Positions 2,852-39,009 of a stretch of DNA of 47,264 nt are shown here, in pieces. Position 1 is the first letter of the stretch. Each line of letters opens with the position of its first letter. The DNA comes from Chitinophagaceae bacterium (GTDB lineage: Bacteria; Bacteroidota; Bacteroidia; Chitinophagales; Chitinophagaceae): positions 1-47,264 of the forward strand of contig JAMLHK010000020.1 of the NCBI GenBank assembly GCA_023957155.1, given 5' to 3'. The notes under the pieces were generated by a model, which was not told the origin of the DNA, searched no databases, and was given only the letters and a program-made list of their open reading frames with translations. Made by a program: the position numbers and the translations under genes.

Positions 2852-2880
2852 GTTTCAGGTTAGAGTTTCTGGTTTCGGGG

Positions 2881-3014
2881 AGTGCTTTTCAAATTTTCGC
2901 AGGCGGGTGGTGACCTGCCTACCGGTCAGGCAGGCACCCGCCTGTAGAACCCGCTACCGGTCGGTGTCTCACCGACCGGAAAGCCGTACATAAGCGAAAA
3001 TTTGAAATGCACCC
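2881..3014. repeat. Family-1 palindromic repeat, copy A (MITE-like)
   Basis: This 134-bp intergenic element has inverted ends: the left side contains TTTCAAATTTTCGC and the right side GCGAAAATTTGAAA. Inside are two hairpins. One has a 7-bp stem, CCTGCCT/AGGCAGG (2914-2934). The other has a perfect 10-bp stem, CCGGTCGGTG/CACCGACCGG, with a TCT loop (2957-2979). The octamer GTTTCGGG flanks it on both sides (2872-2879 and 3015-3022), a possible target duplication, although the surroundings are low-complexity. Related copies lie at 11017-11133 and, split by a transposase cassette, at 37588-38612. It encodes no protein. Confidence 0.8.
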
Positions 3015-3116
3015 GTTTCGGGTTTCGAGTTTGACATTTATTGTTTTTAGTTTATGATTTATGCCTTTTAAGCAAGCAAGAAGAAAAACAAATTTCTTAA
3101 TACCAAATAATTAAGT

Positions 3117-11016: not shown

Positions 11017-11133
11017 AGGGCACATTTTAATTTTTCGCTCTGCCCACAACGTTCCGGTCGGTGAGACACCGGCCGGTAGCGGGTTCTACGGGCGGGTGTC
11101 GCCGACCGCCTGCGAAAGATTGAAGTATGCCCT
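11017..11133. repeat. Family-1 palindromic repeat, copy C (inverted orientation)
   Basis: This 117-bp element ends just before the esterase start. Its outer ends are inverted: AGGGCACATTTTAATTTTTC on the left and, on the other strand, AGGGCATACTTCAATCTTTC on the right. The core carries CCGGTCGGTGAGACACCGGC, the hairpin of copy A in reverse. The AGCGGGTTCTACGGGCGGGT core also matches copy A read on the other strand. It fills most of the 172-bp gap after the methylase. Confidence 0.75.
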
Positions 11134-37550: not shown

Positions 37551-37587
37551 ATTAATTTAAAAAAATATAGTTACTGTCCGGGTAACA

Positions 37588-37682
37588 GGGGTATATTTCA
37601 AATTTTCGCAGGTGGGTGGTGACCTGCCTACCGGTCAGGCAGGCACCCGCCCGTAGAACCCGCTACCGGTCGGTGTCTCACC
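37588..37682. repeat. Family-1 palindromic repeat, copy B left half
   Basis: From ATATTTCAAATTTTCGCAGG it matches copy A almost base for base (GACCTGCCTACCGGTCAGGC, AGAACCCGCTACCGGTCGGT) up to GGTGTCTCACC at 37672-37682. There the match stops, and the transposase cassette begins. The rest of the repeat resumes at 38557. Confidence 0.8.
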
Positions 37683-37763
37683 ATAGCCGTCAATTTATGC
37701 CCGGAGGGCTTACATGTGAATAGCCTCCAACGAAGTTGGGGGATAAAGGGGAAAAGGTGGATC

Positions 37764-37781
37764 CAACCCGCTGGCGGGTTG
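37764..37781 (+). repeat. REP-like palindrome, left copy
   Basis: CAACCCGC-TG-GCGGGTTG forms an 8-bp stem, 11 bases past the transposase stop. With the adjoining AAC, 21 bases are shared exactly with the inverted copy at 38302-38322. Confidence 0.8.
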
Positions 37782-37792
37782 AACGATATGGG

Positions 37793-38236
37793 CTACAACA
37801 GGTATTTTTCATTAAATTCAATATCATTCTCCATAAGCAGCCGCCTGAATTCATCCCGGAATGTTTCTTTTTTATGATGCTCCTTTTGATTTTTAATATA
37901 ATTGATAATCGTATCCTTTTCTTTGATCGAACAGGTGAAGGCGCCATAGCCATCCTGCCACTCCTCAAAACCCGGAAATAAACCGTTCTCTTTCATCCAT
38001 CCATTGCTAGCTATTTTTATGTCCTTGATATAATTGGCGAGTGAGATGGACGGGTGAAGGTCTGAAAGGATATGAATGTGATCTTCTGCCCCGTTAATAC
38101 GATAAAGCTTACACCTCTTATTTCTTACAACGCCCCAAATGTACTTGTACAGTTGTTCGCAATTTTCTTCAGCAATAGTCGCTTTGCGGTGCTTTGTACC
38201 AAAAATAAGGTGGTAAAAGATCTGACGGTAGCTCAT
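37793..38236 (-). CDS. REP-associated tyrosine transposase (IS200/Y1-like TnpA)
   Basis: This 147-residue HUH endonuclease cuts and joins single-stranded DNA at hairpins. The fold is readable in order: MSYRQIFYHLIFGTKHRKAT, the metal-binding HUH as DHIHI (H53, H55), WQDGYGAFTCS before the second half, and the nucleophile motif NYIKNQKEHHKKETF (Y113, Q117, H120-H121). Length and the YIxNQxxHH motif fit the RAYT/TnpA_REP group. All catalytic residues are present, so it looks active. It is flanked on both sides by inverted REP-like hairpins and has no orfB/TnpB partner, as expected of a domesticated or hairpin-mobilising transposase. Confidence 0.92.
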   Translation of the reverse strand: MSYRQIFYHLIFGTKHRKATIAEENCEQLYKYIWGVVRNKRCKLYRINGAEDHIHILSDLHPSISLANYIKDIKIASNGWMKENGLFPGFEEWQDGYGAFTCSIKEKDTIINYIKNQKEHHKKETFRDEFRRLLMENDIEFNEKYLL

Positions 38237-38304
38237 AGCGTTTATTCATTGGTTAGAAAAGGTGATAATATGCATTTGTAAGATACATTATTATTAATAA
38301 TGTT

Positions 38305-38322
38305 CAACCCGCCAGCGGGTTG
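38305..38322 (-). repeat. REP-like palindrome, right copy (inverted)
   Basis: CAACCCGCCAGCGGGTTG is the exact reverse complement of the left palindrome and lies 68 bases upstream of the transposase start. Confidence 0.8.
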
Positions 38323-38340
38323 TGCTCCGTCCTCCTGTTA

Positions 38341-38463
38341 CCTCCCGCTTCGCGGGAGGCTATTCGCGTTTCAGCCCTTCGGGCTGAGATTCAGTCCCTA
38401 CTATCATAAATATTGTGCTTCCGGGGTTGATATGCATAGGTGTTGCCATAGCCTCTTCGAGGC
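38341..38463. repeat. Cluster of three further 3-nt-loop hairpins
   Basis: CCTCCCGC-TTC-GCGGGAGG (38341-38359), TCAGCCC-TTC-GGGCTGA (38371-38387) and GCCTC-TTC-GAGGC (38451-38463) follow one another. The first two mirror the left end of the cassette; the third has ATAG at its 5' foot. The TTC loops (GAA on the other strand) are constant while stems vary. Confidence 0.75.
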
Positions 38464-38556
38464 ATCAGTTTGGCAGATTACGATCATATAGGTTTTAATC
38501 AGTCCCCTAGTGTAGCCGCCAATTTGTGCAAAATACTTTGTTAAGTTGACGCCTAT

Positions 38557-38612
38557 GGTGTATCACCGACCGGAATACCGCGTATGAAGCCAAAATTTGA
38601 AATACACCCAGG
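38557..38612. repeat. Family-1 palindromic repeat, copy B right half
   Basis: GGTGTATCACCGACCGGAAT, the following CCG, and AAAATTTGAAATACACCCA match the 3' part of copy A (GGTGTCTCACCGACCGGAAA onward). Together with 37588-37682 this restores a full element with inverted TTTCAAATTTT ends. Confidence 0.75.
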
Positions 38613-39009
38613 TAACACGAGCGGGGATTGAATGTAGAAACGGTTCCTTCATGATAAGGCGGACTGTCGTTGTCATCATTTAGAAACAGCCGTATATTAT
38701 GAATGATAAAAGCGGGCTGGTAAATGTTCCTTCCCGTTCGGCCCCTGTATTATGGTGCTATTACAGGATAATATTAGCTCCTATCCCGGAGCGATCTGCC
38801 TGCTAAAGAAGGGGGTGTTACGTAAAGTGTAATATAAACGGGCTATGATGATACCGGTAGCGTTATGTTAACCATAATATGCCGCATCATTTTGTGAATG
38901 GTGAATAAATTCACTGCTGACAATTGCCTATTCACTCAGGCAAGACGATATGTTATAATATAACATACCCGTAGCCTGGCTTTTACCGGTATTTCCGGGA
39001 AGGCTTGTT
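38613..39009. other. Non-coding gap with tandem hairpins downstream of gdhA
   Basis: No supported ORF is present in these 397 bases. Three consecutive palindromes occur close to the gdhA stop: GTGAAT-AA-ATTCAC (38901-38914), TTGCCT/AGGCAA (38924-38943), and TATGTTAT-AAT-ATAACATA (38949-38967). None has a T-run on the minus strand, so they could be a 3'-stability structure but not an obvious terminator. The rest is unremarkable. Confidence 0.4.

Follow-up and report, generated by a model that had tools for sequence, protein, structure and literature searches.

Inverted REP-like hairpin modules flank a subclass 1.2 Y1 transposase gene in a Chitinophagaceae genome

What are the hairpins that surround a small transposase gene of a Chitinophagaceae bacterium, and do they belong with its enzyme? 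The gene lies on contig JAMLHK010000020.1 of assembly GCA_023957155.1 (47,264 nucleotides, the whole of which was analysed and is referred to here as the window) and encodes an intact Y1/HUH transposase. An earlier note on this DNA had taken the cassette to be a unit of a RAYT (REP-associated tyrosine transposase) with its own set of REPs (repetitive extragenic palindromes), possibly an undescribed family able to move or seed REPs across the genome. We assign the protein by its motif signature to a different class, TnpA_Y1 subclass 1.2, which is IS200-like, and find that the gene stands between two inverted hairpin modules; a REP-like partnership of modules and gene is well supported by their anatomy. 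The reading we consider probable is that of a subclass 1.2 Y1 gene with two inverted partner modules that have spread in the genus through the frame of an IS4-type miniature inverted-repeat transposable element (MITE). The gene and its modules are as follows.

37793-38236, minus strand: intact Y1/HUH transposase gene, 147 amino acids, with the subclass 1.2 signature DHIH, EWQ, YIKNQKEHH
37699-37709, plus strand: hairpin A on the 3' side of the gene, from single-stranded DNA (ssDNA) folding
37720-37723, plus strand: foot ATAG on the 3' side, directly before hairpin B
37724-37742, plus strand: hairpin B on the 3' side, CCTCCAAC-GAA-GTTGGGGG, 8 bp stem and GAA loop, from the hairpin detector and folding
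37764-37781, plus strand: palindrome C on the 3' side, from ssDNA folding
38305-38322, minus strand: palindrome C on the 5' side, from ssDNA folding
38341-38359, minus strand: hairpin B on the 5' side, CCTCCCGC-GAA-GCGGGAGG, 8 bp stem and GAA loop, from the detector and folding
38360-38363, minus strand: foot ATAG on the 5' side, directly before hairpin B
38372-38386, minus strand: hairpin A on the 5' side, from ssDNA folding

Read inward, both gene ends carry hairpin A, the ATAG foot, hairpin B and palindrome C in this order, in an inverted arrangement. The earlier note had described the same order of three hairpins at each end, and both the coordinates and folding bear this out: all three hairpins per end were recovered by single-strand DNA folding, with z scores of -2.71 on the 3' side and -5.09 on the 5' side relative to 200 shuffles. 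It was also right that the middle stems differ while pairing and the GAA loop are kept; the two B stems of the window have different sequences with pairing intact, including one G-T pair in the 3' copy.

Subclass 1.2 is defined in the relevant passages of Quentin et al. (2018, PMC6006769) by the motifs DH[IV]H, WQ and Y...Q..HH, a low copy number and occurrence in Bacteroidota. The window protein resembles it in all of these respects and in length, with DHIH, EWQ and YIKNQKEHH on a HuH/Y1 core of the ~148 amino acid length class; there is one full copy of the gene in the genome, and the next match there is 45% identical. In place of the RAYT catalytic motif Y...NP it has Y...Q..HH (YIKNQKEHH). 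A RAYT identity for the protein is ruled out by motif and fold, contrary to the earlier note, and Quentin et al. already place subclass 1.2 outside the RAYT class. Nor is the protein family undescribed, since the subclass was described in 2018, although we recognised no report of REPs or hairpin partners for it in the open-licence literature. The table of that paper gives no REP for subclass 1.2, and the accompanying text describes these genes as generally without typical terminal IS200 structures, whereas footed REP-like hairpins flank most of the copies examined here. The automatic REP search described there required a GT[AG]G foot and was made in TnpA_REP-encoding genomes, so that subclass 1.2 may have gone unsearched; the window foot is ATAG at both ends, outside the GT[AG]G of RAYT REPs.

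For comparison we used the best 80 of 137 confirmed homologous loci (45-84% identity), which with the window make 81. By record title these are mostly from Bacteroidota, with two from Actinobacillus and one from a Calditrichia metagenome-assembled genome (MAG), and they are partly close relatives and thus not all independent. Y...Q..HH is present in 77 and HuH in 78 of the 80 homologues. The Actinobacillus homologues (L114 and L121, 49-50% identity) lie outside Bacteroidota, which suggests transfer between phyla.

The same module order was read by eye around homologues in other contexts. A strict detector, which takes [AG]TA[AG]CC followed immediately by a hairpin, read inward and at most 300 nt from the gene, found hairpins upstream at 45/80 loci, downstream at 48/81 and on both sides at 33/80. 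The outward strand gave 3 upstream, 12 downstream and none on both sides, and dinucleotide shuffling a mean of 0.1. With a relaxed detector (RTAR-CC hairpin, stem 7, one mismatch, same distance) the inward counts rose to 51 upstream, 54 downstream, 65/81 on either side and 40/81 on both, compared with 3 and 2 of 559 in segments 1.2-2.7 kb distant. The flanking modules exceed chance. When the foot was not required, RTAR was found in the four bases preceding 60/140 inward but 10/111 outward 8-3-8 hairpins, and 37 of the 38 distinct inward hairpins preceded by RTAR start with CC; the footless 8-3-8 hairpins are numerous and include those of A and C type. When pairing was not required, RTARCC led straight into an 8-3-8 hairpin paired at 7 or 8 of its 8 stem positions at 77/192 inward places and 17/81 outward.

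Footed B hairpins flank homologues in Chryseobacterium, Prevotella-like and other genomes too, and Chryseobacterium genomes hold A-B-A units, both dispersed and tandem. Judged by motif, the 23 Chryseobacterium-type loci fall into two sets: upstream of the gene, 12 have a carA-like match, and each of the remaining 11 has either a histidine-kinase-like match on that side or a response-regulator-like match on the downstream side. Pfam bore out the carA neighbour at L067 and the kinase neighbour at L075; it did not confirm the response regulator. These two recurrent neighbourhoods point to long vertical retention.

The earlier note held that structure was kept and not sequence, and the B stems are indeed re-paired across relatives. 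In an unselected alignment of close relatives the B stem reads CCTCCCGC, CCCCCAAC or CCCCCTGC, with the partner strand altered to match, and a single pair is broken, at L048. We also aligned 57 distinct B 23-mers (4 nt foot, 8 bp stem, 3 nt loop), selected to have TA, CC and 7 or 8 of the 8 stem pairs; invariance of these columns reflects that selection and is no result. Paired cells amount to 96.1% versus 69.2% in shuffled sets and at most 53% in slid versions, covariation to 0.767 versus 0.226 shuffled, and cells changed on both sides to 137 versus 44.9, all of them inflated by this selection for pairing. At the first position of the foot, 47 of the hairpins have A, 8 have G and 2 have C.

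Dispersed copies in the same genome, proposed as a check in the earlier note, were found. A DNA search of the genome gave 56 matches with the window region and 28 with a single MITE as query, and these resolve by reading to 12 places beyond the window, none with an intact gene. As the genome is 88% complete, this number is a lower bound.

C22: 235 kb and 107 kb
C12: 327 kb and 336 kb
C4: 66 kb
C14: 26 kb
C3: 30 kb
C1: 6 kb and 113 kb
C24: 248 kb and 70 kb
C25: 134 kb

The footed B is kept at 10 of the 12 and missing at C24 70 kb and C25 134 kb; the copy at C1 113 kb retains both ends together with gene fragments. We compared 12 genomes of the genus. All seven with a DNA match to the gene also have MITE matches (2-43), as do two of the five without one (6 and 2 matches; Fisher p = 0.045), where absence of the gene means none among the DNA matches listed, and divergent homologues may be missed. 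Across 396 genomes of the order the strict B pattern was found in 26, comprising 18/172 with a homologue at E 1e-20 or better and 8/224 without (p = 0.007); at least two matches were found in 12/172 and 3/224, respectively (p = 0.006), and no control reaches two. Of 30 homologue-carrying genomes 28 have the pattern and none the reversed control, a count that includes gene-adjacent copies and is therefore not independent. Ferruginibacter has three near-identical MITEs with inverted modules inside different ends, and a Saprospiraceae MAG has inverted pairs with little conservation beyond the hairpins. Two further repeats were observed in these searches: G329, G335, G391 and G393, all of one genus, contain dispersed GTAGCCCGGGGTGCAACCCCGGG-type hairpins, mostly with a canonical GTAG foot, and a separate dispersed repeat at window positions 38858-38967 has matches at several places in its own genome and also in G265 and G434.

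How did the modules spread within the genus? Full MITEs of the genus are ~200-240 bp long, with ends CATAGCCGTCAAC / CATAGCCGTCAACTTAAG and the interior order A, foot-B, C, B'-foot', A'. We examined 40 copies (33 from congeners, 7 from the window's own genome), and in 34 of them, from eight genomes, both ends could be matched within the mismatch limit. Of these 34, 22 are flanked by perfect 9-10 bp direct repeats, compared with a mean of 2.6 and a maximum of 8 under shuffled pairing, and these target duplications are 9-10 bp of a GTGNNNCAC-like site. Exact repeats are lacking from 12 of the 34; at four (L207, L208, L210 and L238) the flanking 9-10 bp are inverted and look as if one hairpin loop had flipped. 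At L249 (G433:C51:2000-3800) three left MITE ends 288 bp apart are followed by one right end, forming a tandem array. The window element has the same frame, and it lies within an older MITE.

37682-37696, plus strand: terminal inverted repeat CATAGCCGTCAATTT of the element frame, the same end as in the genus MITEs
38540-38557, minus strand: terminal inverted repeat of the other end of the frame, CATAGGCGTCAACTTAAC on the minus strand
37673-37681, plus strand: left direct repeat GTGTCTCAC, target duplication, present once in uninterrupted older MITE copies
38558-38566, plus strand: right direct repeat GTGTATCAC, target duplication, one mismatch relative to the left copy
37596-37682, plus strand: left part of the older palindromic MITE, 98% identical to the uninterrupted copy at 2880-3015
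38557-38609, plus strand: right part of the older palindromic MITE, 83% identical to the copy at 2880-3015

The interval 37683-38556 that the earlier note had delimited agrees with the element frame to within one base per end. The older MITE has ends GGGTGCATTTCAAATTTTCGC, with copies at window positions 2880-3015 and 11023-11108; searched at E 0.1, the genome gives 30 matches to it, a count that takes in fragments and interrupted copies. Direct repeats of 8 bp were seen by eye at L140 and L161. Seven newer copies in this genome, the window one included, adjoin pieces of it. At the window, C24 248 kb, C22 107 kb and C4 66 kb both flanks are, by eye, its central palindrome CGGTCGGTG-NNN-CACCGACCG, and the empty site is visible in uninterrupted copies, one of them at 2880-3015. 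The apex of this older palindromic MITE is where the window element sits. The outer inverted repeats at 37579-37609 and 38589-38619, considered as the element's own ends, were rejected; they belong to the older MITE, which is uninterrupted elsewhere.

The target of IS231 is GGG(N5)CCC, for which reason IS4-type genes were looked for. A PF01609 search of eight genus genomes gave 31 matches, 30 of which were scanned for ends. Among them was an IS4-family element (NF033592, 2.6e-58), of which G431 has five copies of 1541 bp and G429 a single 1539 bp copy (L271, L276, L279, L280, L284 and L288), with ends CATAGTCGTTAAG and a target starting with GTG. The 10 bp direct repeats are exact at four of these six complete copies (GTGGGGACAC, GTGTAAGGAC, GTGGGGGCAC and GTGTGTGCAC) and off by one or two bases at the other two. 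About 9 of the first 11 bases of its end agree with the MITE end (CATAGTCGTTAAG versus CATAGCCGTCAAC), the duplication length is equal, and the target form GTG...CAC is common to both. From this likeness of ends, duplication length and target form we read the MITE frame as IS4-type, and the enzyme that moves it is probably a DDE transposase of IS4 type rather than the Y1 protein. No long open reading frame was seen between paired MITE ends in 20 further congener stretches, where reading frames were judged by length only.

The earlier note's suggestion that the transposase moves or seeds REPs fares unevenly here. Gene-less modules are dispersed in the genome and in congeners, as it would predict, but with 9-10 bp duplications and IS4-like ends their spread in the genus is no evidence for seeding by the Y1 enzyme, which is less likely for these copies than mobilisation by an IS4-type transposase.

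We propose a partner module made of hairpin A, an [AG]TA[AG] foot set directly on hairpin B, and palindrome C, two inverted copies of which flank the gene. By analogy with RAYTs, which bind REP hairpins, the Y1 enzyme would bind the footed B in single-stranded DNA, and may nick and rejoin there. In this genus the ends and duplications support a spread of the module pairs as MITEs with IS4-like ends, and the window element is such a frame that also holds the gene and lies in the older MITE apex. A wider proposal, on which we are evenly divided, is that subclass 1.2 Y1 enzymes are the partners of a phylum-wide, RTAR-footed REP family, a REP partnership having arisen or survived in the IS200-like class as well as in RAYTs. 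Under this proposal the family would have been passed over through the GT[AG]G requirement or because no search was made beside subclass 1.2, and the packing of modules into DDE-type MITEs in some lineages would mean that two transposases of unrelated kinds act on a single repeat.

Several results weigh against the proposed partnership or its IS4-type spread. Orientation is not absolute, as the relaxed detector also gave outward hairpins (5 upstream, 21 downstream, 26/81 on either side). No such hairpin is present on either side of 16/81 loci with one mismatch allowed, albeit some of these show weaker forms by eye, such as a CTAG foot at L064; the earlier note had counted relatives whose gene lacks flanking hairpins as evidence against its reading, and footed hairpins are present at 65 loci and absent from 16. 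The four own-genome paralogues (26-45% identity) have no flanking hairpin of the B kind. The genus comparison depends on how absence of the gene was scored, and the order-wide link of gene and pattern is modest, with the pattern present in eight genomes that lack a homologue at E 1e-20, 24 times in G335; the reversed-control pattern has one match in 9/396 genomes, so single matches are partly chance. As to the frame, the likeness of IS4 and MITE ends is only ~9/11 and the IS4-family element is in other genomes, the four PF01609 matches of the window's own genome show no pair of such ends, and the fetched congener gene copies have no pair of CATAGCCGTCAAC ends within 4 mismatches. The window copy consequently gives the impression of an IS4-type frame that has captured a gene cassette, and as the sole gene copy seen in such a frame it may be a chance capture.

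These last points bear on the possibility that the modules travel passively in an IS4-type MITE, the Y1 enzyme having nothing to do with them and their co-occurrence with its gene coming from capture. The MITE frame with its 9-10 bp duplications and IS4-like ends would fit, as would G427 and G426, which have MITE matches (6 and 2) and no DNA match to the gene, with a contig-edge piece in G427 (L287) carrying the same IS4-type end. We nevertheless think it unlikely, because footed B hairpins stand beside Chryseobacterium, Prevotella-like and other homologues, where the frame was not noticed by eye (no systematic search was made), and because in the three Ferruginibacter MITEs the modules lie within other ends. 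A canonical RAYT with its REP set would account for the inverted hairpins, the dispersed module copies, and the tetranucleotide foot, 8 bp stem and 3 nt loop; this is the geometry of the Stenotrophomonas REPs described for REPtron Sm in PMC8266576, where GTAG directly precedes a 16 nt palindrome with a 3 nt loop. We regard it as very improbable, for the protein is of class 1, the foot is mostly ATAG or ATAA, each side has the extra hairpins A and C, and in this genus the modules are carried in MITE frames.

An ordinary self-moving IS200-like insertion sequence, with the hairpins as its left and right ends, would suit a class 1 protein and the MAG SJ882, which has three gene copies at different sites with the outer repeat GGCTAATTAATATTTTGATGTGC in common at least on the left. 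This outer repeat is borne by several congener gene copies, and no clear target duplication was seen by eye for the GGCTAATTAATATTTTG-ended ones. An IS200/IS605 insertion sequence (subclass 1.1) is expected to insert without a target duplication and to have ends that are not inverted repeats. The window ends are inverted and symmetrical, direct repeats GTGTCTCAC / GTGTATCAC flank the element, there is one full copy in the genome, and Chryseobacterium-type copies sit in two gene neighbourhoods, so that we place little credence in such an element; the inverted ends and direct repeats rule out the cassette as a classic IS200 element. Least probable, in our view, is that the hairpins act as RNA elements or terminators and have no part in transposition; the B-A pair resembles the Rfam candidate RNA Acido-Lenti-1 (RF01687). 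The B-A part scores 25.1 bits (E 0.003) at window positions 38341-38386 and 28.8 bits at L185 385-430, below the gathering score of 37, and 40.1 bits at L120 49-93; this is the one locus of 80 to pass, the four Rfam matches at gathering being RNase P, a His leader, a tRNA and Acido-Lenti-1. A terminator needs neither an RTAR foot nor a mirror-image order around a gene. The likeness may also run the other way, as little is known of the function of Acido-Lenti-1 according to a passage in one paper; this candidate RNA may itself be a DNA element of the module kind.

How, then, does a subclass 1.2 gene with inverted partner modules compare with known systems? Like RAYT (TnpA_REP, class 2) genes it is flanked by inverted hairpins with copies elsewhere in the genome. 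The nearest described arrangement of a gene between inverted repeats is that of the TIRtrons (TIRYT genes) in the account of Di Nocera et al. (2013, PMC3733652), in which a Y1 gene lies between long inverted repeats and related repeats occur elsewhere, as here. TIRtron proteins are RAYT-like, however, and their inverted repeats are described as mostly unrelated to REPs, whereas the repeats here contain footed hairpins. With IS4-family MITEs the frame shares ends starting with CAT and target duplications of 9-10 bp, but it differs in the interior mirror pair of A-B modules around C and in one copy that holds a Y1 gene.

The Chitinophagaceae copies look mobile, and the Chryseobacterium-type copies are found in two recurrent neighbourhoods. 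On this basis subclass 1.2 may stand midway between IS200 elements that move themselves and REP processors that have been domesticated, and an orphan Rfam candidate RNA is possibly the same kind of DNA element. The modules provide a candidate substrate for a subclass that had been described without insertion-sequence ends or REPs and, if the partnership is true, REP-type repeats would extend beyond the RAYT class.
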